64,000 nucleotides of DNA from Halanaerobium hydrogeniformans (lineage in GTDB: Bacteria > Bacillota > Halanaerobiia > Halanaerobiales > Halanaerobiaceae). Below, in pieces: positions 14,269 through 27,184 of this stretch. The DNA lies in the NCBI RefSeq assembly GCF_000166415.1, contig NC_014654.1, positions 806,001 to 870,000 on the forward strand, in the 5' to 3' direction. Numbering within the stretch: position 1 is the first letter of the stretch; the number at the start of each line of letters is the position of its first letter. The translations under genes and the position numbers were made by a program. A model generated the notes under the pieces. It was given only the letters and a program-made list of their open reading frames with translations. It was not told the DNA's origin and searched no databases.

Positions 14269-14305
14269 TCCAGTAAATACTTCTTTAAATTGATAATTGC
14301 TATTT

Positions 14306-16225
14306 GGTTTGCCCCCAAAAAGCCTAAATAAATTTCATCAATAACCAAATAATAACAATTAATTTTTCTTTTATCATCCTAAAATTAATTAGATTAATCC
14401 GCCATAATCCTTTATATGACAGGCTTTCTTTGATATAATTAACTTAATAAATCATAGAAAGGATGATAGAATGTTTGTTCCCAACAGTCACCAGCAGTTA
14501 AGTCTTTACGACTCATTTAAGGATTTACCTAAATATCTACAGGAATATCTTTTAAATTCCTGGGCCGATACTTTTCAGGAAATTATCTTCCCTGCAATTG
14601 ATGAAGAACGCTTTGCTGTACTCTACAGTGATAAAGGTTCAAGACCGAATACTCCTGTTAATATAATTATCAGTTCCCTTGTAATTAAAGAACTTTTTGA
14701 TCTCACTGATGAAAGATTAGTTGCCAATATCCATCTAAGTATGGAATATCAGTATGCTCTTAGATTAACCAGTGAAGAAAGACCGCCTGTCTCTAAAAAT
14801 ACATTCAGTAATTTTAGAGAACGGGTTACAGATTACTACAAAGAAACAGGTATAGACTTAATTCAGCAGGAAGTTGAATCCCTGGCTGAATTAATTACAG
14901 ATAATCTGGAAATCGAAGGCGATAGAGCTAGAATTGATTCTTTTATGGTTTCTTCTTCCGCCAGAGAATTATCCAGAATAGAACTTGTTTATACTGTTAA
15001 TGCTAACTTCATCAAAATGCTTTCTCAGTCTTTTGAAGATCTAATTCCTGAAGGACTTGAAGTATATTTAAAAGAGTCCCACAGAAATGAAGTCATCTAT
15101 CGAACCAAAAATGATGAAACCAAAAGCAAACTCAAAAAGCTATTAGAAGATGCTAAAACTCTTTATGATTCAGCAGTTACTGCCGGAGGCAGTGTTACTG
15201 AAACTGAAGAATTTATGCTTCTAAAAAGAATGCTCGGAGAACAGACAGATTATGATGACGATGATTTTGATGATCTTGATCCTGATAATATTGAAGCTAA
15301 GGACGGTACAGAATTGGAATCTGATATTCTGCAGAACCCCAGTGATCCTGATGCAACTTTTAGACAGAAATATGAAGCTAATATCGGCTATACAGCCAAT
15401 GTGCTGGAAGTTTTTGACGACGATAATTCTGTAATTACAACCTATGATTTTAAGCCTAACATATATTCTGATCAGGACTTTAGTGCTGATACTTTAGAAA
15501 AGCTGAACAGTGAGCATGTGCTAAACTTTAATATTGAGAACCCAATAAAAATCTTTATGGATGGTGCTTATTATACTTATGGCCTTGCTAAAAAGGCTTT
15601 AAATCTCGGTATTAAGTTTATGCCCGGTGAATTAACCGGTAAAAAACCTGCTGCTGACAAAATGACCTATTATCAAAACTTTAATCTTGGTTCTGACTAT
15701 GAAAATGTTTTAAGCTGTGCCAATGATGTAGAACCTGATTATCAGGAGAAAGACCCTGATAAGAATTCATTCTATGCCATCTTTGATAAAGAAAAGTGTG
15801 CTGGCTGCAAACTAAAATCAGAGTGCAGAATAAAAAGCAACAAAAAACATAATTCAGTCAGTTTTACTGAACAACGATATGAAACAGGAAAACTAAGAGA
15901 AACAATGGGAGAAAAAGAATACATCCAAGAATGTAACCAGAGAGCAGGCGTAGAAGGAATACCTTCTGTTTTCAGACGCAAATATGATGTCGATGATATG
16001 CCGGTCAGGGGTTAAGTATGTCAAAAAATCTGGTTTGGATTCAAAGTTGCAGCAGCAAACTTCAAAAAGTTGCTGAAAGGACTGGAACCATCCACCTCCT
16101 GAACCAGGTAAGTCTTTTTTACACTATATAATTTTATTTTTACTGATAAATGAGAAATTTATTACTCAAGACCTTAGATAATTTTATTTCTAAGGATATT
16201 TATTTAGTCTTTTTGGGGGCAAACC
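14306..16225 (+). mobile_element. IS1182-family insertion sequence, copy 1
   Basis: Terminal inverted repeats GGTTTGCCCCCAAAAAG (14306-14322) and CTTTTTGGGGGCAAACC (16209-16225) are perfect over 17 bp, or 18 bp with the next T/A. One long transposase frame lies inside. A small stem (CCTTAGA / TCTAAGG, 16172-16195) precedes the right end. Copy 2 differs from it by one deleted T, as far as can be read by eye. Confidence 0.92.
14471..16015 (+). CDS. IS1182-family transposase, copy 1 (ends at an early ochre codon)
   Basis: A 514-aa DDE-type transposase. The N-terminus (LPKYLQEYLLNSWADTFQEIIFP and FSNFRERV) is typical of the family. An acidic linker (DYDDDDFDDLDPDN) lies near residue 265. A cysteine cluster (CAGCKLKSEC) lies near 440, and the C-terminus reads QRAGVEGIPSVFRRKYDVDDMPVRG. 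After the TAA at 16013-16015 the frame stays open for 28 codons (VCQKIWFGFKVAAANFKKLL and onward to TGA at 16100). That stretch resembles the normal family C-terminus, so the protein is probably shortened by one TTA-to-TAA change. The other copy shares this stop. Ribosome site AGAAAGGATG. Confidence 0.88.
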   Translation: MFVPNSHQQLSLYDSFKDLPKYLQEYLLNSWADTFQEIIFPAIDEERFAVLYSDKGSRPNTPVNIIISSLVIKELFDLTDERLVANIHLSMEYQYALRLTSEERPPVSKNTFSNFRERVTDYYKETGIDLIQQEVESLAELITDNLEIEGDRARIDSFMVSSSARELSRIELVYTVNANFIKMLSQSFEDLIPEGLEVYLKESHRNEVIYRTKNDETKSKLKKLLEDAKTLYDSAVTAGGSVTETEEFMLLKRMLGEQTDYDDDDFDDLDPDNIEAKDGTELESDILQNPSDPDATFRQKYEANIGYTANVLEVFDDDNSVITTYDFKPNIYSDQDFSADTLEKLNSEHVLNFNIENPIKIFMDGAYYTYGLAKKALNLGIKFMPGELTGKKPAADKMTYYQNFNLGSDYENVLSCANDVEPDYQEKDPDKNSFYAIFDKEKCAGCKLKSECRIKSNKKHNSVSFTEQRYETGKLRETMGEKEYIQECNQRAGVEGIPSVFRRKYDVDDMPVRG

Positions 16226-16420
16226 ATAATATAGAATTATGGATCTCCAGATTTAAGTGCTTTGTTTTATTAATCATTTCTTGAATTGGATTCGTTATAG
16301 ATTATTTCAGACTTTTTGCAGTGCAAATATTTATTTTTTTAAAATAAAGGAGTTTACAGAATATTCGTGAACATTAACATTATAAGCTGTTATTATTTTA
16401 AATGAGAGGAGGCAAAAAAA
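16226..16420 (+). other. AT-rich leader between IS1182 copy 1 and the sigma-54 activator gene
   Basis: About 195 bp of very AT-rich sequence. I see no gene. GAGAGGAGG at 16402-16410 is the ribosome site for the regulator. No convincing -35/-10 pair with good spacing was found; promoter activity reading out of the IS end is possible. Confidence 0.4.
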
Positions 16421-18058
16421 TTGTTTGTTGAAAATACTTATTATTTAGAAAAAATAAGTGATGCATGGGAAAAATTAGCAATTAGTGGTGATATAGAAGA
16501 ATCTATCAGAGATAATATTAAAGAATCATGGAATAGATGTATTAATGATGATAATAATAAATTAAACCCAATAACTGATAAACCAACTGATGTAATAATA
16601 AGGGGTAATAAATTAAAAGAAATTAAAGAACAAAATAGCAAATTAATTTATTACTGTTTGCCTAAAATGAAAGAGCTATACTCTCTGGTAAAAGGTTCAG
16701 GTTATAATGTAATTCTTGCTGATAACAAAGGTTGTATTTTAAAAGTTATAGGAGATAAAAGTTTGGCTTTTTCTAAAAAATATGATATTATCGAAGGCGC
16801 TAATTGGTCAGAAGAAGTACAGGGAACTAATGCAGTTGGAACTTTAATTAAAAACAAAACACCGGTTACAATATTTTCTAAAGAACATCTTCTTAAAAAA
16901 AACCATGATTTAGTTTGTACAGCAGTACCAATCATAGATAAATTCGGTTATATATGTGGAGTATTATGTATGGCTGCCAATTATAAAAATATTCATCCTC
17001 ATACATCTGCACTTTTAAAAAAAGTATGTGAGGATATTAACAGAGAGCTAATTGTTCAGAGTAAGGATTATAGTTCGTTAAATAACAGCTTAAAAAACAA
17101 GCAAAAAGAAGAAACTGCTGATTATAATTTTTCTGATATAATTTATAAAAGTCTTAAAATGAAAGAATTAATGAAAGCTGCAAAAAAAGTAGCATTTAAT
17201 GATTCTACGGTTTTGATTCATGGCGAAACCGGAACAGGTAAAGAGCTTCTGGCACAATCGATTCATAATTATAGTTTTCGTTCAAACAAACCATTTGTTG
17301 CTGTAAACTGTAGTGCAATACCGGATGATTTGTTTGAAAGTGAATTTTTTGGTTATGAAGAAGGTGCATTTACAGGCGGGAAAAAAGGTGGTAGAGTAGG
17401 AAAACTTGAATATGCAGATGAAGGAACAGTATTTTTAGATGAAATTAATAATTTAACCAAAGTAAATCAGGCCAGATTATTAAGAGTAATTGAAGAGCAG
17501 AAAATCACTTCATTAGGAAGTAATAAGAGTAAAAATATTGATTTAAGATTTATTGCAGCTTCAAACAAATCGCTTGCTAAACTTGTTGAAGAAAATAAAT
17601 TCAGAAAAGATCTTTATTATAGATTAAATGTTGTCAATCTAAATATTCCACCTCTAAAAGAGAGGAAAATTGATATTTTAGTATTGGCAAATTATTTTTT
17701 AAGAAAATTAGGTTATAAATTCAATAAAGGTAGTCTTAAAATTGGAAGGGAAGCAAAACAAATATTCTTAGATTATAACTGGCCGGGAAATGTCCGAGAA
17801 CTGAGGAATGTAATTGAAAGCGCATTAAATTTAATGGACAATTCTATACTTAAATTAGAGCATATACCTAACCACATCAGAAAGATTCTTAATGATAAGG
17901 GAAATAGAATTCTTACTTTTGATGAGTATGAAAAGAAATTTATTAGAGATGCTTTAGTATTTTTTGATGGCAATATCACTTTAACAGCTAAACAGTTAAA
18001 CATTGCGAGAAATACTCTTTATAGGAAGCTTGAAAAATATAATATTAGTGGTTGTTAG
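16421..18058 (+). CDS. Sigma-54-dependent activator (GAF-AAA+-Fis type, AcoR-like)
   Basis: A 545-aa enhancer-binding protein. N-terminal region: IRDNIKESWNRC (the SWxRC segment of AcoR-like activators) and a GAF-type sensor domain to about residue 210. AAA+ domain: Walker A GETGTGKE near 268-275, the sigma-54 contact motif GAFTG at 315-319, Walker B-like GTVFLDEINN, and WPGNVRELRN near 455. A Fis-type helix-turn-helix lies at ~505-545 (NITLTAKQLNIARNTLYRKLEKY). It starts with TTG after GAGAGGAGG. It lies just upstream of, and in line with, a -24/-12 promoter, so it most likely activates the glycyl radical operon in response to the substrate. Confidence 0.93.
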   Translation: MFVENTYYLEKISDAWEKLAISGDIEESIRDNIKESWNRCINDDNNKLNPITDKPTDVIIRGNKLKEIKEQNSKLIYYCLPKMKELYSLVKGSGYNVILADNKGCILKVIGDKSLAFSKKYDIIEGANWSEEVQGTNAVGTLIKNKTPVTIFSKEHLLKKNHDLVCTAVPIIDKFGYICGVLCMAANYKNIHPHTSALLKKVCEDINRELIVQSKDYSSLNNSLKNKQKEETADYNFSDIIYKSLKMKELMKAAKKVAFNDSTVLIHGETGTGKELLAQSIHNYSFRSNKPFVAVNCSAIPDDLFESEFFGYEEGAFTGGKKGGRVGKLEYADEGTVFLDEINNLTKVNQARLLRVIEEQKITSLGSNKSKNIDLRFIAASNKSLAKLVEENKFRKDLYYRLNVVNLNIPPLKERKIDILVLANYFLRKLGYKFNKGSLKIGREAKQIFLDYNWPGNVRELRNVIESALNLMDNSILKLEHIPNHIRKILNDKGNRILTFDEYEKKFIRDALVFFDGNITLTAKQLNIARNTLYRKLEKYNISGC

Positions 18059-18069
18059 AAAATCTAACA
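18053..18069 (+). promoter_or_regulatory. Candidate activator binding site (UAS 1), TGT-N11-ACA
   Basis: TGTTAG-AAAAT-CTAACA is a perfect 6-bp inverted repeat and overlaps the activator stop codon. Its centre is about 209 bp upstream of the centre of the -24/-12 promoter. A similar TGT-N11-ACA site lies 109 bp downstream. Confidence 0.55.
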
Positions 18070-18108
18070 CTAATTGAATAATATATAAAGCCTTACATCT
18101 CAACTTTT

Positions 18109-18143
18109 AATCTCCTTAATTTATTGATTAGGGAGGTTTTTTT
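18109..18143 (+). terminator. Rho-independent terminator after the sigma-54 activator gene
   Basis: CTCCTTAAT (18112-18120) pairs with ATTAGGGAG (18127-18135; one G-U pair), followed by a T-rich run 18137-18143. It separates the activator transcript from the downstream operon. Confidence 0.8.
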
Positions 18144-18161
18144 ATTTTTATATGAAAGATG

Positions 18162-18178
18162 TGTAACTAAACCTAACA
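18162..18178 (+). promoter_or_regulatory. Candidate activator binding site (UAS 2), TGT-N11-ACA
   Basis: TGTAAC-TAAAC-CTAACA keeps the right arm of UAS 1 exactly and its outer TGT/ACA. The centre is about 100 bp upstream of the -24/-12 promoter, a normal enhancer distance. Spacing to UAS 1 is 109 bp, close to whole helical turns. Confidence 0.5.
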
Positions 18179-18261
18179 GTTTTTTAAATTTTGTGAATTT
18201 ATTAACTATATATTTCTTTGGAATTGACACTAATAATAGGAATAATAGCTATTTTTTTTGA

Positions 18262-18279
18262 TTGGCATAATTAATGCAT
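18262..18279 (+). promoter_or_regulatory. Sigma-54 (-24/-12) promoter of the glycyl radical operon
   Basis: TTGGCATAATTAATGCAT has GG at 18264-18265 and GC at 18276-18277, exactly 10 nt apart, as sigma-54 promoters require. Transcription would start near 18289, about 40 nt ahead of the first gene. The adjacent GAFTG activator is the expected partner. Confidence 0.85.
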
Positions 18280-18329
18280 TTAAATATATGTAAATTGAAC
18301 TCCTAACTAATTTGTAAAGGAGAATTAAA

Positions 18330-19016
18330 ATGGATAGTAAAATTCTAAGAATTAATATGTCAGAACTTAAAATTAATGAAGAAGAAGTTTCTAAAGATTA
18401 TTTGCTTTTAAATGGTAGAGAATTAACTACAAAAATTATGAGTGATGAAATTCCTGAAAATTGTAACCCACTAAAAGAAAAAAACAAAGTTGTAATAGCT
18501 CCAAGTATATTAAATAATACTAATTCATCATGTTCAGGAAGACTTTCTATTGGAGCTAAAAGCCCTTTAACTTTAACTATTAAAGAATATAATTCTGAAG
18601 CAGTCTGCAGCCACAAATTAATTAAACTCGCTATTAAAGCAATAATTATAGAAGGCCTTTCAGAAGAAAATAAATTTTATAAAGTAATAATAAAAAACGA
18701 ATCAATTGTACTTGAACTTGCTGAAGAATATGAAGGTATAGGAAGTTATAATTTAATTGACTTAATTAAATCTGAATATGGAAACGAAATTGTTTTAATT
18801 TCTATTGGAGTTGAAGCAGAAAATAAAATGATTGCTGCTGGGATATCCATTAATGATGTGGATAGCCATTTTCATAGATATGCTGCAGGAGGGGGGTTAG
18901 GAGCAGTTTTAGCTGCGAAAGGGGTTAAAGCTTTAATAATTGATAATAATAATTCTGATAAAGCTGAATTGCATAATAAGGCAAAGTCTAATCTATCAGT
19001 AAAAAAGTTTGACTAA
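18330..19016 (+). CDS. Stand-alone AOR N-terminal (AFOR_N) domain protein
   Basis: A 228-aa protein that aligns by eye with only the first ~210 residues of the AOR encoded at 25379. For example, LNGRELTTKIMSDEIPENCNPLKEKNKVVIA matches [30 protein letters not shown], and GGGLGAVLAAKGVKALIID matches the end of the AOR domain. In AOR this domain holds much of the tungstopterin site. An Arg (SGR) and an Asn (YNSE) at the expected pterin-contact places appear kept. The iron-sulfur cysteines, located in the missing C-terminal two thirds, are absent. It has its own AAAGGAG ribosome site and is first in the sigma-54 operon, so it looks like a real gene, not a broken AOR. Its function is unknown. Confidence 0.8.
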   Translation: MDSKILRINMSELKINEEEVSKDYLLLNGRELTTKIMSDEIPENCNPLKEKNKVVIAPSILNNTNSSCSGRLSIGAKSPLTLTIKEYNSEAVCSHKLIKLAIKAIIIEGLSEENKFYKVIIKNESIVLELAEEYEGIGSYNLIDLIKSEYGNEIVLISIGVEAENKMIAAGISINDVDSHFHRYAAGGGLGAVLAAKGVKALIIDNNNSDKAELHNKAKSNLSVKKFD

Positions 19017-19139
19017 AGTTATATTATAAAAAAAGAAGGGAGTTGGTTATTTGAATTGATGGTTCATATTTAGTATTTTAGTTTTGAAGCTGACAGAGTT
19101 ATATTTTTAAAATTCAAATTAATAATAGGAGGTTTCTAA

Positions 19140-21662
19140 ATGGCAATTACAAAAGATAAATTAACTTATGGAATTAAGCCTTATAATGAAGATTGGGGTA
19201 CTGGTGTTTCTGGTATGAATGCGGAGACTGCCTCTCCATTTGAAAGAATTCGCAATTGGAGAAAACAATTTTTAGATACTCCGCTAACTCTTGATGAAGA
19301 AAGGGCAATTCTTTGGACAGAAGCTTTAAAAGGAAATGAAGATAAACCACAGATTATAAGAAATGCAGAGGCATTGGCCTATGTGTTGGAAAACATTCAA
19401 ATTCATATTGGCGATTACGAATTAATTTTAGGTAACATGGCTGCTCCGCCTCGCTGTGCACCTGTGTTTCCAGAGTTTTCTTATGAATGGATGTTAGATG
19501 AATTAGAAAATGCTCCTTTTAACGAAAGAGACGGAGATAGATTTGAATATAATAAGAAAACTAAAAACAATTTAATGAACCTGGCTGAATTTTGGAAAGG
19601 TCAAACTGTTCATGATTTAGCTAAAAATCTAATGAGTGAAGAAGAATTAAAAGGAACGGGCGGGTATGGGAAAGGTCTATATTTACTTGGGAATTATTTT
19701 TATGGTGGAGTTGGTCACTGTTCACCTAGATATGAAAAACTTTTAGATTTAGGCTGGCAGGGGATCAAAGAACAGGTAGAAAAAAATTATGCTAAAATAG
19801 ATATGACAGATCCTGAAGGAATAAAAAAAGCAGCATTTTACAAAGCAGAATTAATTAGTGTAGAAGCAATAATGAATTATATAAAAAGATATGCTCAATA
19901 TGCTAGAGAAAAAGCTGAAGCAGAAAGTGGTGCTCGTAAAGAAGAATTAATGCAAATGGCAGATAACTGTGAATGGATTTCAGAAAATCCACCAAGAAAT
20001 TTCTGGGAAGCAATGCAGATGTGGTGGTTTATTACAGTTACTATAACTATAGAAGGTAATGGACATTCTATAGCATATGGAAGATTTGATCAGTATATGT
20101 ATCCATTTTATAAAAAAGATATTGAGGATGGTACTTTTTCTAAAGAATTTATACAAGAATTAATTGAATGTGGTTGGATAAAAATAAGTGAACTGACCAA
20201 AATTAGAGATGCCGGTTCTACAGCTGCTTTTGGTGGTGTTGAACTTGGTGGAACTTCTTTAACCCTCGGTGGAGTAACACCTGATGGTGATGATGCTACA
20301 AATGATTTATCATTTATGGGAATTGATGCGTTAGCTCATGTAAGATTACATGCACCATGGATAACAACAAGACATCATATCGATGAACCTAAAGAATGGA
20401 TGCTAAAATGTACCAAAGTTGCAAAAATGGGATTTGGTTTACCTTCATTTTTCAATGATGAAGTAATTATTCCTTCTATGTTGAACAGGGGCAGAAAAAT
20501 TGAAGATTGTCGTGACTATAATGCACTTGGTTGTGTTGAGCCAGATGCAGGAGGTCGTGAATATGGCTGGCATGATGCTGCATTCTTTAATATGAACAAA
20601 GTACTTGAGCTTGCTATAAACAATGGAAAATGTATCAACTGTAGTTCTGACTGCCCTATTTATGAAAATTGTGTAGGAGCTGGCTCACAGCTTGGTTTAG
20701 AAACAGGTTCACTTGCTGATTTTGAAACATTTGAAGAAGTAAAAGAAGCATATGAAAAACAGATGGAATACTGGGTTGATCGTTTAACTGCTGCTCTTAA
20801 TTCTTGTGATATAGCTCATATGGAGCGCAAACCACTACCATATTTATCACTACTTATCGAAGATTGCATAGATAAGGGGGTTGATGTTACAAGAGGTGGA
20901 GCTAGATATAACTTTATTGGTCCTCAGGGTGTAGGTGTTGCAAATGTAGCTGATGGGCTTTCCAATATTAAATATCTTGTTTTTAATGAAAAAGAGATAA
21001 GCGGAGAAGAATTATTAGAAGCTTTAGAAAAAAATTGGGAAGGCTATGAACCTATTTATGTTAAAGCAAACAGCAGCAATATACCTCATTACGGAAATGA
21101 TGATGACTATGCAGATACATTAGCTAAATACGGGGCCAATGTATATTGTAAAGAAGTAGAAGAAAGACCGGCTGCTCATGGGGGTATTTTTCAGCCTGGA
21201 TTATATCCTGTTTCTGCTAATGTTCCACATGGTGCTATGCAAGCTGCAACACCTGATGGTAGGAAAGCTGGTGAAGCAGTTGCAGATGGAGTTTCCCCTG
21301 TTCATACAAGTCGGGCTTCACATGATATTTCTGGACCTACAGCATTATTTAAATCTGTATCTAGTCTTGATCATGCAAGAGCATCAAATGGTACACTATT
21401 AAATACAAGATTTGCGCCATCAACACTTGAAGGTGAAACAGGTGATGAAAACTTCATGGCTTCAATGAGAGTATATTTTGAACGCAAGGGTATGCATAAT
21501 CAGATTAATGTAATTAGCAGTGAAGTATTGAAAGATGCTATGGAAAATCCTGGAAATTATAAAGGTCTACTTGTTAGGGTAGCTGGATATAGTGCTTTCT
21601 TCACTGAACTTGATTCTAGTTTACAAAAAGATTTAATTGAAAGAACTGAGATGTCTTATTAA
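19140..21662 (+). CDS. Glycyl radical enzyme of the PFL/dehydratase superfamily, substrate unknown
   Basis: An 840-aa enzyme. The thiyl-radical cysteine is C465 in the loop GCVEP with E467, the Cys-x-Glu pattern of the dehydratase and C-S/C-N lyase branch, not the CC of true pyruvate formate-lyase. The glycyl radical site is G816 in RVAGYSAFF, close to the C-terminus. C498, C501, C505 and C511 (CINCSSDCPIYENC) form an extra cysteine cluster just after the active-site loop. The N-terminus (PFERIRNWRKQFLDTPLTLDEERA) is typical. Ribosome site AGGAGG. It is followed by a GlcG-like gene and its activase. It has no microcompartment genes next to it. The substrate cannot be named from these motifs. 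Confidence 0.93.
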   Translation: MAITKDKLTYGIKPYNEDWGTGVSGMNAETASPFERIRNWRKQFLDTPLTLDEERAILWTEALKGNEDKPQIIRNAEALAYVLENIQIHIGDYELILGNMAAPPRCAPVFPEFSYEWMLDELENAPFNERDGDRFEYNKKTKNNLMNLAEFWKGQTVHDLAKNLMSEEELKGTGGYGKGLYLLGNYFYGGVGHCSPRYEKLLDLGWQGIKEQVEKNYAKIDMTDPEGIKKAAFYKAELISVEAIMNYIKRYAQYAREKAEAESGARKEELMQMADNCEWISENPPRNFWEAMQMWWFITVTITIEGNGHSIAYGRFDQYMYPFYKKDIEDGTFSKEFIQELIECGWIKISELTKIRDAGSTAAFGGVELGGTSLTLGGVTPDGDDATNDLSFMGIDALAHVRLHAPWITTRHHIDEPKEWMLKCTKVAKMGFGLPSFFNDEVIIPSMLNRGRKIEDCRDYNALGCVEPDAGGREYGWHDAAFFNMNKVLELAINNGKCINCSSDCPIYENCVGAGSQLGLETGSLADFETFEEVKEAYEKQMEYWVDRLTAALNSCDIAHMERKPLPYLSLLIEDCIDKGVDVTRGGARYNFIGPQGVGVANVADGLSNIKYLVFNEKEISGEELLEALEKNWEGYEPIYVKANSSNIPHYGNDDDYADTLAKYGANVYCKEVEERPAAHGGIFQPGLYPVSANVPHGAMQAATPDGRKAGEAVADGVSPVHTSRASHDISGPTALFKSVSSLDHARASNGTLLNTRFAPSTLEGETGDENFMASMRVYFERKGMHNQINVISSEVLKDAMENPGNYKGLLVRVAGYSAFFTELDSSLQKDLIERTEMSY

Positions 21663-21683
21663 ATATATGGAGGTTTGACAAAT

Positions 21684-22088
21684 ATGAAACTAAACTTAAA
21701 AACTGCATTAAAAATGATTGAAGCGGCTGAAGCAAAGGCAGAAGAAATTGAGGTGCCAATGGTAATAACTGTTTTAGATGGAGGAGGAAATCTTATTGCT
21801 CAACATCGTATGGACGATGCAATATTTGCAAGTGTAGATATTTCTCTTAATAAGGCATATACTTCAGTTTCTACTAAAATGCCTTCTCATGTTATTGGTG
21901 AAGCTTCTCAGGTTGATCAACCTCTATTTGGTATAAACACCACTAATAATGGCAGACTTGTGATATTCGGTGGAGGCTTTCCAGTTAATGATAATAAAGG
22001 TAATGTAATAGGTGCTATAGGTGTTAGTGGAGGAGAAGTAGAAGATGATATGAGCTGTGCTGAGGCTGGATTAGAAGTTTTAGAATAA
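21684..22088 (+). CDS. GlcG/HbpS (DUF336, PduO-C-like) family protein
   Basis: A 134-aa protein of the Haem_degrading/GlcG family: ALKMIEAAEAKAEEIEVPMVITVLDGGGNLIAQHRMDDA at residues ~8-46 and the glycine-rich end FGGGFPVNDNKGNVIGAIGVSGGEVEDD (~95-122). Members bind haem or corrinoid-like ligands in some cases and often accompany glycyl radical or diol dehydratase loci. The ATG at 21684 lies 10 nt after TGGAGG; an in-frame TTG at 21675 is too close. It is 21 bp after the glycyl radical enzyme gene, clearly co-transcribed. Its job in the locus is not known. Confidence 0.88.
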   Translation: MKLNLKTALKMIEAAEAKAEEIEVPMVITVLDGGGNLIAQHRMDDAIFASVDISLNKAYTSVSTKMPSHVIGEASQVDQPLFGINTTNNGRLVIFGGGFPVNDNKGNVIGAIGVSGGEVEDDMSCAEAGLEVLE

Positions 22089-22101
22089 ATATCAACTATA
22101 T

Positions 22102-22131
22102 AAGTGGTGGGGCTTGAATTCCTCACCACTT
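22102..22131 (+). other. Strong hairpin between the GlcG-like gene and the activase gene
   Basis: AAGTGGTGGGG (22102-22112) pairs with CCTCACCACTT (22121-22131), ten of eleven pairs. No T-run follows, so it is not a classical terminator. It may protect the upstream mRNA end or lower expression of the activase relative to the enzyme. Confidence 0.55.
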
Positions 22132-22160
22132 GTATACTAATTTGTCTAGAGGTGATTATT

Positions 22161-23141
22161 TTGAATGATATAAATGGAAATGTATTTAACATCCAGCGAT
22201 ATACAGTTCATGATGGCCCTGGAATTAGAACTGAAATATTTTTAAAAGGTTGTTCTTTAAAATGTCTCTGGTGTTGTAACCCAGAAAGTTTTAATAAAAA
22301 TCTTGAAATTGGAGTATATCCAGATAAATGTATAGGGATAGATAAGTGTGGTTATTGTCTAGAAGCATGTTCTTTTCCTAAAGAGAAAATATTTGAAATA
22401 AATGAAAATAATGCTGTAGAATCAATTAATAGAGAATTATGCACTAATTGTCTGAGATGTGCTGAAGTTTGTCCAGGCGATGTGATTATTACTTGGGGTG
22501 AAATTAAAAAGGTTAGTGAAGTAATTGAAGAAGTAAGTAAAGATAAAATATATTATGATGAATCAGGTGGTGGAATTACTATTTCTGGAGGTGAGCTTCT
22601 CGTACAGTGGGAGTTTGCGCTAGAATTATTAAAAGAGAGTAAAAGACTAGGTATCAATACTTGTATAGAAACCACTCTTTACGCCAAATGGAATATAATA
22701 GAACAATTATTAGATTATAGTGATCTTTTAATAACAGATATTAAACATATGAATGCAAAAAAACACAAAGAATTTACGGGAGTTTCTAATAAATTAATAT
22801 TAGAAAATATTATTAAAGTTTCAAAAGAAGATATTCCATATCTTATTCGTATACCTATGGTTCCTGATCATGTAGCAACCGAAGAAAATATGAGAGAAAC
22901 TGCAAAATTTATCAAAGAAGAACTAAAAAATATGCCTTTGCAGATACAACTACTTCCTTTTCATGAATATGGCCAAAGCAAATATAATACACTTGGAATG
23001 AGTTATCTTTTAAAAAATTATAATTTTCCTGAAAGAAAAACTCAAAATTATCTAATTGAAAGTCTGCATACAATAATGTTAGATTATCAAATACCAGTTG
23101 TTATCGGAAGTACCAACAAACTTCCTTTGAGTAAAAAATAA
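22161..23141 (+). CDS. Glycyl radical enzyme activase (radical SAM, PflA-like with ferredoxin insert)
   Basis: Generates the glycyl radical on the enzyme at 19140. The 326-aa protein starts with TTG at 22161, 5 nt after AGAGGTGA. Radical SAM CX3CX2C is at C31, C35 and C38 (CSLKCLWC), preceded by YTVHDGPGIRTEIFLKGC. An insert with two four-cysteine clusters follows (CGYCLEAC, and CTNCLRCAEVCPGD), as in activases of dehydratase-type glycyl radical enzymes and unlike PflA itself. GGGITISGGELLVQWEF is the family GGEP-like segment. It is the last gene of the operon. Confidence 0.93.
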   Translation: MNDINGNVFNIQRYTVHDGPGIRTEIFLKGCSLKCLWCCNPESFNKNLEIGVYPDKCIGIDKCGYCLEACSFPKEKIFEINENNAVESINRELCTNCLRCAEVCPGDVIITWGEIKKVSEVIEEVSKDKIYYDESGGGITISGGELLVQWEFALELLKESKRLGINTCIETTLYAKWNIIEQLLDYSDLLITDIKHMNAKKHKEFTGVSNKLILENIIKVSKEDIPYLIRIPMVPDHVATEENMRETAKFIKEELKNMPLQIQLLPFHEYGQSKYNTLGMSYLLKNYNFPERKTQNYLIESLHTIMLDYQIPVVIGSTNKLPLSKK

Positions 23142-23148
23142 GAAATTT

Positions 23149-23219
23149 AAACTTTTTGATAGAGCTCTGTCAGTATGATATTGTTTATTTTCATTCAGTA
23201 AGAAAAACACAAAAAGTTT
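23149..23219 (+). repeat. Inverted repeat after the activase gene
   Basis: AAACTTTTTG (23149-23158) and CAAAAAGTTT (23210-23219) are perfect 10-bp complements separated by 51 bp. The large loop makes terminator activity uncertain. It is the only structure between the activase gene and IS1182 copy 2. Confidence 0.4.
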
Positions 23220-23236
23220 CATTAAAGATAAAATAA

Positions 23237-25155
23237 GGTTTGCCCCCAAAAAGCCTAAATAAATTTCATCAATAACCAAATAATAACAATTAATTTTTCT
23301 TTTATCATCCTAAAATTAATTAGATTAATCCGCCATAATCCTTTATATGACAGGCTTTCTTTGATATAATTAACTTAATAAATCATAGAAAGGATGATAG
23401 AATGTTTGTTCCCAACAGTCACCAGCAGTTAAGTCTTTACGACTCATTTAAGGATTTACCTAAATATCTACAGGAATATCTTTTAAATTCCTGGGCCGAT
23501 ACTTTTCAGGAAATTATCTTCCCTGCAATTGATGAAGAACGCTTTGCTGTACTCTACAGTGATAAAGGTTCAAGACCGAATACTCCTGTTAATATAATTA
23601 TCAGTTCCCTTGTAATTAAAGAACTTTTTGATCTCACTGATGAAAGATTAGTTGCCAATATCCATCTAAGTATGGAATATCAGTATGCTCTTAGATTAAC
23701 CAGTGAAGAAAGACCGCCTGTCTCTAAAAATACATTCAGTAATTTTAGAGAACGGGTTACAGATTACTACAAAGAAACAGGTATAGACTTAATTCAGCAG
23801 GAAGTTGAATCCCTGGCTGAATTAATTACAGATAATCTGGAAATCGAAGGCGATAGAGCTAGAATTGATTCTTTTATGGTTTCTTCTTCCGCCAGAGAAT
23901 TATCCAGAATAGAACTTGTTTATACTGTTAATGCTAACTTCATCAAAATGCTTTCTCAGTCTTTTGAAGATCTAATTCCTGAAGGACTTGAAGTATATTT
24001 AAAAGAGTCCCACAGAAATGAAGTCATCTATCGAACCAAAAATGATGAAACCAAAAGCAAACTCAAAAAGCTATTAGAAGATGCTAAAACTCTTTATGAT
24101 TCAGCAGTTACTGCCGGAGGCAGTGTTACTGAAACTGAAGAATTTATGCTTCTAAAAAGAATGCTCGGAGAACAGACAGATTATGATGACGATGATTTTG
24201 ATGATCTTGATCCTGATAATATTGAAGCTAAGGACGGTACAGAATTGGAATCTGATATTCTGCAGAACCCCAGTGATCCTGATGCAACTTTAGACAGAAA
24301 TATGAAGCTAATATCGGCTATACAGCCAATGTGCTGGAAGTTTTTGACGACGATAATTCTGTAATTACAACCTATGATTTTAAGCCTAACATATATTCTG
24401 ATCAGGACTTTAGTGCTGATACTTTAGAAAAGCTGAACAGTGAGCATGTGCTAAACTTTAATATTGAGAACCCAATAAAAATCTTTATGGATGGTGCTTA
24501 TTATACTTATGGCCTTGCTAAAAAGGCTTTAAATCTCGGTATTAAGTTTATGCCCGGTGAATTAACCGGTAAAAAACCTGCTGCTGACAAAATGACCTAT
24601 TATCAAAACTTTAATCTTGGTTCTGACTATGAAAATGTTTTAAGCTGTGCCAATGATGTAGAACCTGATTATCAGGAGAAAGACCCTGATAAGAATTCAT
24701 TCTATGCCATCTTTGATAAAGAAAAGTGTGCTGGCTGCAAACTAAAATCAGAGTGCAGAATAAAAAGCAACAAAAAACATAATTCAGTCAGTTTTACTGA
24801 ACAACGATATGAAACAGGAAAACTAAGAGAAACAATGGGAGAAAAAGAATACATCCAAGAATGTAACCAGAGAGCAGGCGTAGAAGGAATACCTTCTGTT
24901 TTCAGACGCAAATATGATGTCGATGATATGCCGGTCAGGGGTTAAGTATGTCAAAAAATCTGGTTTGGATTCAAAGTTGCAGCAGCAAACTTCAAAAAGT
25001 TGCTGAAAGGACTGGAACCATCCACCTCCTGAACCAGGTAAGTCTTTTTTACACTATATAATTTTATTTTTACTGATAAATGAGAAATTTATTACTCAAG
25101 ACCTTAGATAATTTTATTTCTAAGGATATTTATTTAGTCTTTTTGGGGGCAAACC
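23237..25155 (+). mobile_element. IS1182-family insertion sequence, copy 2
   Basis: It has the same 17-bp terminal inverted repeats as copy 1 (23237-23253 and 25139-25155), the same orientation and 1919 bp instead of 1920. The only difference noticed is the missing T that breaks the transposase frame. Confidence 0.92.
23402..24945 (+). pseudogene. IS1182-family transposase, copy 2, frameshifted
   Basis: Same gene as in copy 1, but ACTTTTAGAC has become ACTTTAGAC near 24286-24294. The frame of the first 300 residues runs into an unrelated tail that stops at 24364; the rest of the protein continues in the second frame to 24945. The ochre stop before the normal C-terminus is also present here. 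Copy 1 reads straight through this point without any slip, so a programmed frameshift is unlikely, and this copy is probably inactive. Confidence 0.9.
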
Positions 25156-25257
25156 ACTATTTGAGCAATGAATTATTAAAATAATTTTCAAAAAATATAG
25201 AAATTTACAAAAACTAAGCAGGAATTTAGCCTTTTATATTTAATAATATTAGTAATA

Positions 25258-25368
25258 CCTTCGAGTTTTTCTGCCTAAAGAAAATAGCTTTCTAAGGTGG
25301 CTAAACCGATGGGTTGAGAAAGAAATGACTCAGCCTCCCGTGCTTGGAAAGAAGAGTAATCTTAAGGA
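25258..25368 (+). promoter_or_regulatory. Molybdenum/tungsten cofactor (Moco/Tuco) riboswitch
   Basis: The core AGAAATGACTCAGCCTCCCG (25321-25340), followed by TGCTTGGAAAG (25341-25351), matches the conserved 3' half of the Moco RNA motif as I recall it from E. coli moaA (AGAAATGACT, GCCTCCCGT, TGGAAAG). The 5' half (GGTGGCTAAACCGATGGGTT, 25297-25316) is short and lacks a long extra hairpin, as in the tungsten-cofactor variant. It lies just before the AOR ribosome site AAGGAGG (25364-25370). ATACC near 25256 could pair with the GGTAT after that site, a possible way to block translation; that pairing is inference. Confidence 0.85.
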
Positions 25369-25378
25369 GGTATAATTA

Positions 25379-27184
25379 ATGGGAAAAATTTATGAATATC
25401 AGGTATTAAGGGTAAATTTAAGTGATGGAGAAATTTCACGCGAAACAATTGCTGGTGAAAATGTTAAAAAGTTTTTAGGTGGGAGAGGTCTCGCTTCTAA
25501 AATGCTTTATGATGAAATTGATCCAAAGGTTGATCCTTTAAGCCCTGAAAACAAGCTTATTTATGCTTCAGGTCTTCTAACAGGTACTGCAGCTTCTACG
25601 GGAGGACGCTATATGGTAATCACCAAGGGTCCTTTAACAGGTACTATTGCAAGTAGTAACTCAGGTGGATTCTTCGGTGCTGAAATGAGATTTAGCGGTA
25701 ATGATATAATTGTATTTGAAGGTAAAGCAGAAAAACCTGTCTATCTATCTCTAAAAGGAGATAAGGCTGAACTCAAAGATGCTTCACATCTGTGGGGTAA
25801 AGGTGTTTATGATACTACAGATATGTTAATTGAAGAATTTGGTGATGAAAAAGCAAGAGTAAGCTGTATCGGTCCTGGTGGAGAAAAACTGGTTAAATTT
25901 GCTTCAATAATGAATGAAAAAGATAGAGCAGCAGGTAGAACCGGTGTTGGAGCAGTTATGGGTTCTAAAAACTTAAAAGCCATAGTTGTTAAAGCTGATG
26001 AAAAACAGGTAGAGTATTTTAAAGATGAGATGATGGAAGTGGTTAAAAAGCAGACTAAAACATTAAAAGAAGATGGAGTTACAGGAGAAGGTCTTCCTGC
26101 CCTGGGTACTAAGGTGCTTGATAATATTATCAACTCACATGGAGCATATCCAAGAAATAACTTCCAGTATGGTACCTTTGCAGATGTTGAAGAGGTATCA
26201 GGAGAAGCTTTAGTAGAAAAAGGCTATCTACAGGGTAATAAAGGATGTTATGGTTGTCCTATCCGCTGTGGTAGACATACCAAACTTCCAAATGGCCAGG
26301 AAGGTGAAGGTCCTGAATACGAAACTGGTTGGGCTTTTGGTGCTGACTGTGGTGTTAATGATTTAAATGCTATAGTTCAGGCAAACTTCCTCTGTAATGA
26401 TTTAGGTTTGGATACAATATCTGCTGGTGCAACCATTGCAGCTGCAATGGAATTATATGAAAAAGGTTATATAGATAAAGATGAACTGGAAAATGGTCCA
26501 GAACTTAAATTTGGTTCTTCAGAATCAGTTATTTATTATACAAGACAGATGGCTTATCGTGAAGGTTTTGGCGACCAGATGGCTGAAGGTTCATATAGAT
26601 TAGCAGAAGCTAAAGGTAATGCAGAACTTTCTATGAGTGTTAAAAAACAGGAATTACCTGCCTATGATCCTCGCGGAATTCAAGGCCAGGGTTTAAATTA
26701 TGCTACCTCTAATCGTGGTGGATGTCATGTAAGAGGATATATGGTTTCTCCAGAGGTATTAGGAGTACCAGAAAAACTTGATCCGCTTGAATTAAAAGGA
26801 AAGCCAGAGTGGGTTAAAATATTCCAGGATCTAACAGCAGTAATTGATTCACTTGGAATGTGCCTCTTTACTTCTTTTGCCCTTGGTTTAGAAGATTATA
26901 CAGAAATAGCTAATGCCGGAACAGAGTTTGATTTTACACCAGAAGAAATGCTGGAAAATGGAGAAAGAATCTGGAACCTGGAGCGTCAGTTTAACCTTGA
27001 AGCAGGTATTACACCTGATCAGGATAAACTTCCTAAGCGCTTTGATGAACCACTTCCAGATGGAACCTTTAGAGGTTCTGCAGCTAAATATAGAGAAATT
27101 CTGCCCGAGTATTATGAAATTCGCGGCTGGCAGGAAGATGGCTGGATTAGTGACGAAAAATTAAGTGAGATGGGATTGAAATAA
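25379..27184 (+). CDS. Tungsten-dependent aldehyde:ferredoxin oxidoreductase (AOR)
   Basis: Oxidises aldehydes to acids with ferredoxin, using a bis-tungstopterin and one [4Fe-4S] cluster, in the cytoplasm. Full length at 601 aa. The N-terminal pterin domain is ~1-210 (FLGGRGLASKMLYDEI, GPLTGTIASSNSGG, AGRTGVGAVMGSKNLKAIVV). Cluster cysteines are C290, C293 and C297 (CYGCPIRC) and C495 (SLGMC). A Moco/Tuco-type riboswitch precedes it. The MoaD/ThiS-like and ThiF/MoeB-like genes follow without gaps, so it is a self-contained tungstoenzyme operon whose radical SAM partner lies upstream of the IS1182 unit. Confidence 0.95.
   Translation: MGKIYEYQVLRVNLSDGEISRETIAGENVKKFLGGRGLASKMLYDEIDPKVDPLSPENKLIYASGLLTGTAASTGGRYMVITKGPLTGTIASSNSGGFFGAEMRFSGNDIIVFEGKAEKPVYLSLKGDKAELKDASHLWGKGVYDTTDMLIEEFGDEKARVSCIGPGGEKLVKFASIMNEKDRAAGRTGVGAVMGSKNLKAIVVKADEKQVEYFKDEMMEVVKKQTKTLKEDGVTGEGLPALGTKVLDNIINSHGAYPRNNFQYGTFADVEEVSGEALVEKGYLQGNKGCYGCPIRCGRHTKLPNGQEGEGPEYETGWAFGADCGVNDLNAIVQANFLCNDLGLDTISAGATIAAAMELYEKGYIDKDELENGPELKFGSSESVIYYTRQMAYREGFGDQMAEGSYRLAEAKGNAELSMSVKKQELPAYDPRGIQGQGLNYATSNRGGCHVRGYMVSPEVLGVPEKLDPLELKGKPEWVKIFQDLTAVIDSLGMCLFTSFALGLEDYTEIANAGTEFDFTPEEMLENGERIWNLERQFNLEAGITPDQDKLPKRFDEPLPDGTFRGSAAKYREILPEYYEIRGWQEDGWISDEKLSEMGLK

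Follow-up and report, generated by a model that had tools for sequence, protein, structure and literature searches.

What can the N-terminal domain of a tungsten oxidoreductase do when it is encoded alone, at the head of an operon for a glycyl radical enzyme (GRE)? The question is raised by an ORF (18330-19016, + strand) in the window, the 64,000-nucleotide stretch of Halanaerobium hydrogeniformans DNA analysed here. The ORF starts with ATG, is preceded by AAAGGAG and encodes 228 amino acids, of which residues 4-206 match Pfam AFOR_N (PF02730, profile positions 2-198/199) with 165 bits and an E-value of 1.8e-48. No other Pfam domain is detected in this protein, so that the initial annotation, which described a lone AFOR_N protein with a good ribosome site and no iron-sulfur part, is confirmed. 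Domains 2 and 3 of AOR (AFOR_C, PF01314) are absent, along with the [4Fe-4S] cysteines and the catalytic Glu, Tyr and His; what remains is a folded domain (residues 1-205) followed by an unconstrained tail (206-228). The genome encodes AFOR_N twice, in this gene and in a full AOR (25379-27184), and the latter owns the sole AFOR_C copy found genome-wide; thus, no C-domain gene or remnant remains, and the possibility that an orphan AFOR_C is encoded at another locus is rejected.

The operon and its glycyl radical enzyme

The features of the operon region are as follows.

16421-18058, + strand: sigma-54-dependent activator with GAF, AAA and Fis-type HTH domains (Pfam)
18053-18069, + strand: perfect palindrome TGTTAGAAAATCTAACA (TGTTAGA and TCTAACA around AAA), candidate activator binding site, the sole exact match in the window
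18109-18138, + strand: terminator-like hairpin and T run, putative end of the activator transcript (consensus only)
18262-18278, + strand: sigma-54 -24/-12 element TTGGCATAATTAATGCA, predicted promoter of the GRE operon (consensus match)
18330-19016, + strand: stand-alone AFOR_N protein, 228 amino acids (Pfam, AlphaFold, fold match to 1aor, dN/dS)
19140-21662, + strand: GRE of the diol-dehydratase type, with PFL-like and Gly_radical domains (Pfam, NCBIfam)
21675-22088, + strand: HbpS-like/GlcG-type protein (PF03928, 144 bits)
about 22104-23141, + strand: radical-SAM GRE activase (TIGR02494, 322 bits, from residue 27)

The gene order is thus sigma-54 activator, AFOR_N, GRE, HbpS-like protein and activase, and the Pfam and NCBIfam profiles bear out the three downstream neighbors that had been named from the sequence. 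The -24/-12 element has one match in 64 kb versus 0.14 expected, and both this element and the palindrome are kept in the Halanaerobium MAG M55B147, which carries a second copy of the operon. The hairpin 3' of the activator gene suggests that AFOR_N heads a separate transcript. The location of AFOR_N immediately behind the sigma-54 promoter and next to the activator gene would suit a regulatory partner of the activator, or a sensor of an aldehyde or product for the operon; however, the activator carries its own GAF sensor domain and the lone AFOR_N contains neither a DNA-binding nor a kinase part, so that a regulatory function appears improbable. An Rfam search yields no match within the operon, no Mo/W riboswitch is present ahead of it, and a candidate RNA element in the 123-nt gap ahead of the GRE gene was rejected, its fold being no better than those of shuffled sequences. 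A strong 16-pair hairpin (22097-22136) lies between the HbpS-like gene and the activase and overlaps the listed activase start; the true start is probably some 22 codons downstream of the listed one.

The GRE is the product of the sole Gly_radical gene in the genome. It keeps the glycyl radical motif RVAGYSA and the GCVEP, NGHS, GVGH and GWHD dehydratase residues, and its cognate activase is present. The best equivalog model is HpfG (NF048009), but the score of 946.4 bits is under the cut-off of 1000, which does not fit a true HpfG; for comparison, the L085 GRE scores 1435.7 bits and the closest relative of the window GRE (66% identity, genome G147) scores 979, and the operon activase reaches 356 bits against the HpfH model, under the cut-off of 500. 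A canonical glycerol dehydratase does not fit either. The sequence comparisons point to a 1,2-diol dehydratase with a substrate near glycerol or DHPS. The 66% relative lies near genes that read, by sequence, as glycerol-dehydrogenase-like and diol-dehydratase-like, and it has no AFOR_N beside it, which counts against an accessory role of the lone domain in GRE function.

At about 20630-20680, the GRE contains a cysteine-rich insertion (C-x2-C-x4-C-x5-C), a possible metal site, which is common to the relative L078 and, in similar form, L079, is shorter in L080 and has no counterpart in the glycerol dehydratase 1r8w. This dehydratase-type GRE may correspond to Halsa_0723, published as a "pyruvate formate-lyase" (PMC4237134); the formate reported would then have to come from elsewhere.

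Descent and mobility of the lone domain

Every close relative of the lone domain is a full-length AOR, about 580 residues long, and the genes of these AORs are often grouped with those for iron alcohol dehydrogenases, sigma-54 activators, MoaD or ThiF. This subfamily probably oxidises aldehydes of the alcohol dehydrogenases or diol dehydratases found alongside. In the phylogenetic tree, the lone domains from the window and M55B147 form one clade (support 100/100) nested in this full-length subfamily, and we read the lone AFOR_N from this placement as a truncated descendant of the ~580-residue AORs. The sister of the lone pair is a GRE-linked full AOR of G147 (92/89), a placement that is not fully supported given the unstarred node, the long stem branch of the lone pair (0.93) and its odd composition.

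Full AORs are clustered with GREs at four loci, in genomes G069, G239, G287 and G147, where gene names that lack a search result are readings of the sequence. The clusters of G069, G239 and G287 contain an activator, a GRE, an activase, an aquaporin and an AOR (interrupted by the contig end in G287), with MoaD in G069 and G239; that of G147 (L084) consists of a GRE, an activase, an activator, an alcohol dehydrogenase and an AOR, followed by a diol-dehydratase-like gene. The presence of full-length AORs in related GRE operons indicates derivation of the lone domain by truncation, and the ancestral AOR plausibly served a diol-dehydratase pathway. The tested GREs from AOR-linked loci belong to the glycerol-dehydratase group (61-65% identity to 1r8w) and share only about 47-48% identity with the GRE of the window; hence there is no simple synteny and no direct view of the ancestral operon, which again counts against the accessory role. 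In another Halanaerobium, a stretch that resembles an AOR but is interrupted by a stop codon (G001:C18:56820-57197) is possibly a decaying AOR and offers a contrast to the lone AFOR_N.

The whole operon lies within a composite transposon that spans about 10.85 kb (14305-25156), a setting absent from the initial annotation, with the following arms.

14305-16226, + strand: left IS copy (transposase 14471-16015), terminal inverted repeats GGTTTGCCCCCAAAAAG..., left transposon arm
23236-25156, + strand: right IS copy, transposase frameshifted by a 1-nt deletion, right transposon arm

The two IS copies, the only ones in the genome, are identical at 1920 of 1922 positions; a 1-nt indel and no more than one substitution separate them. 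Both outer ends of the transposon are flanked by the 5-bp target duplication CTATT, and the empty site is represented in the close relative G010 (L155), where a radical-SAM gene and the AOR gene are adjacent and free of the insertion. Relative to M55B147, the operon has a synonymous divergence of 0.42-0.52 and the flanking genes one of at least 1.0, which shows that the operon moved between lineages.

A Mo/W cofactor riboswitch (RF01055, 69.7 bits) occupies positions 25247-25370, ahead of the full AOR; the transposon end is about 90 bp upstream of it and may have altered the promoter of this AOR. In this genome, the lone AFOR_N and the full AOR are neighbors, and a subunit of the resident AOR or a partner interfering with it could be envisaged. 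However, given the insertion, the closeness of the operon to this AOR is an accident, the operon of M55B147 sits elsewhere, and the two proteins belong to different AOR subfamilies with 30% identity. The full AOR next door was therefore rejected as the default partner, and an interaction of this kind is very improbable.

Selection, fold and cofactor site

In M55B147, the five genes are in the identical order and AFOR_N is truncated likewise; neither copy is followed by a C-domain gene. The protein identity between the two copies is 88% for the activator, 81% for AFOR_N, 96% for the GRE, and 88% each for the HbpS-like protein and the activase. A truncation present in two species rules out a sequencing or assembly error, and a random truncation was rejected on the same ground. 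The dN/dS of AFOR_N, calculated against M55B147, is 0.18 (95% bootstrap 0.11-0.29), with 0.09-0.22 along the folded part and 0.86 over the last 23 codons; the values for the other genes are 0.13 (activator), 0.05 (GRE), 0.11 (HbpS) and 0.15 (activase), so that the constraint on AFOR_N is close to that on the activator, HbpS and activase. In a neutral simulation at equal length, the open frame survives in 0 of 5000 runs, and about 128 residues change versus 42 observed.

A functionless truncated AOR at the operon head, possibly tolerated as a leader for translation, would account for the eroded cofactor site and the fast stem branch, for a dN/dS above that of the GRE (0.18 vs 0.05) and for the occurrence of AFOR_N in two species only. 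Against such a remnant stand the dN/dS of the folded domain, far below 1, the intact frame, the conserved promoter and ribosome site, and the failure of the neutral simulation ever to yield the observed state. We consider a remnant unlikely: the dN/dS of 0.18 marks AFOR_N as a maintained, working protein rather than debris.

Among 59 genomes of the class, this lone AFOR_N and the GRE orthologue are each restricted to two, both times together. The initial annotation had pointed to a lone AFOR_N protein encoded in one operon with a GRE; the co-occurrence in two species stands, and what it reflects is a single co-inherited unit, one mobile operon found in 2 of the 59 genomes, rather than a recurrent independent association. 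With two AFOR_N sequences only, co-conservation with the GRE amounts to one event, which also counts against the accessory role. In a sample of 398 genomes of the phylum, no further lone AFOR_N gene is found among the best subfamily matches listed, all but one of which lie in frames of at least about 480 amino acids; the exception (301 amino acids, L145 in G273) is a frame that ends at the contig end. A scan of genome contigs for lone AFOR_N returns one match, and a plasmid collection yields distant matches only, all below 60%.

Structure prediction for the lone protein, suggested in the initial annotation, results in a confident fold: an AlphaFold run with the lone sequence and 39 relatives gives a mean pLDDT of 87 and a pTM of 0.85, with low confidence in the tail (210-228). 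The predicted model matches domain 1 of AOR (Foldseek to 1aor, TM-score 0.80, 29% identity; VIA Z 20-25), and the AFOR_N domain is thus predicted to fold independently of the missing domains. Ubiquitin-like and superantigen-like matches in Foldseek and VIA have Z below 5 and are not read as kinship.

The cofactor site does not sustain the "pterin-binding" label that the domain had been given. The lone copies are altered at 11 and 14 of the 47 positions that at least 90% of full AORs conserve, versus a median of 1 in full AORs, the most divergent of which is the AOR of the window itself, a member of another clade (11/47). Substitutions common to both copies at sites conserved to at least 90% are G63N, G82L, G90E, G163A, R187G and G195A, and among these G90E and R187G replace the equivalents of Gly95 and Arg186 of Pyrococcus furiosus AOR. 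Arg76, Gly95 and Arg182 of the latter enzyme presumably contact the cofactor; the equivalents of Asn93 and Arg182 are retained in both lone domains, and Arg76 is represented by Arg or Lys. In the P. furiosus enzyme, the Mg that bridges both metallopterins is held by main-chain groups of Asn93 and Ala183, and the second-shell catalytic residues are Glu313, Tyr427 and His448 (PMC12096430), which by number fall in the region absent from the lone protein. In the WOR5 clade, Tyr199 replaces a conserved Arg of the cofactor region (PMC12096430); mapped by position, this Arg should be Arg186 of P. furiosus AOR.

The changes of cofactor-site residues in both copies make ordinary pterin or tungsten binding unlikely, and the lone AFOR_N appears to have lost its normal cofactor, although another ligand is possible. 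A carrier or sensor that binds a pterin, tungstate or a phosphate ligand through the remaining half-site, and perhaps informs the GRE operon of the cofactor supply, would be in line with the retained Asn93, Arg182 and Arg76 (or Lys) equivalents and with a domain that folds alone in the predicted model. However, both species have lost several loop glycines as well as the Gly95 and Arg186 equivalents, domains 2 and 3, which normally close the bis-pterin site, are absent, and the GRE operon has no Mo/W riboswitch in front; a ligand binder of this kind seems rather unlikely.

Proposed role and comparison with known systems

These observations are compatible with the following scenario, which we put forward tentatively as the likeliest reading and to which we give close to an even chance: the lone AFOR_N would be an exapted, cofactor-less accessory protein of the GRE dehydratase and activase system. 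An ancestor from the ~580-residue AOR subfamily lost the two C-terminal domains. The N-domain was retained; it evolved fast at first, and purifying selection has since maintained it as an independent protein, folded but with its cofactor site eroded. The truncated descent, the predicted fold, the selection, the co-expression signals, the joint mobility with the GRE operon and the loss of cofactor-site residues are shown by the data, whereas the lack of a tungsten cofactor and the accessory role are inferred. Co-expressed from the sigma-54 promoter as the first product of the GRE operon, the lone domain might, for example, bind the GRE, or the aldehyde-handling partner of the latter, and so stabilise or dock it; it would not be expected to be a redox enzyme. 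The remaining weight falls on the inert remnant, the ligand binder, the regulator, the AOR partner and readings not listed here. The more specific claim, that a metal-stripped domain of a tungsten enzyme became a dedicated accessory subunit of a GRE dehydratase, spread by a mobile sigma-54 operon, and is the first selected lone AOR N-domain, is more doubtful, a possibility rather than an expectation.

If the proposal is correct, the pterin-side domain of tungsten oxidoreductases can exist by itself and take on a new use, and a partner without catalytic function may accompany a glycyl radical dehydratase. The case is easily testable, since a cultured, sequenced species is probably a carrier and the five genes together span about 6.7 kb. 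A literature search found no paper on a lone AFOR_N protein. A 2026 classification of 4,064 WorL tungsten oxidoreductases required both domains (PMC13328260), so that lone AFOR_N proteins fall outside it, and surveys with such a requirement would miss them.

With the AOR/WOR large subunit WorL (PDB 1aor, 9g7j, 8c0z), the lone AFOR_N shares the domain-1 fold and descent from the ~580-residue subfamily, whereas domains 2 and 3, the Fe-S cysteines and Glu313, Tyr427 and His448 are missing and the cofactor-site residues are altered. The loci of G069, G239, G287 and G147 (L084) likewise combine an AOR-derived protein with a GRE, an activase and a sigma-54 activator, but there the AOR is complete (apart from the contig-end cut in G287), aquaporin, MoaD or alcohol dehydrogenase genes are included, and the GREs tested belong to the glycerol-dehydratase group. 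The (2S)-3-sulfopropanediol dehydratase HpfG and its activase HpfH are the closest named models for the GRE (946 bits) and activase (356 bits) of the window; both proteins are nevertheless under the curated cut-offs of 1000 and 500, and the operon lacks sulfonate genes. Thus, the AFOR_N domain itself is known, and its selected use as a lone protein together with a GRE is the new part.
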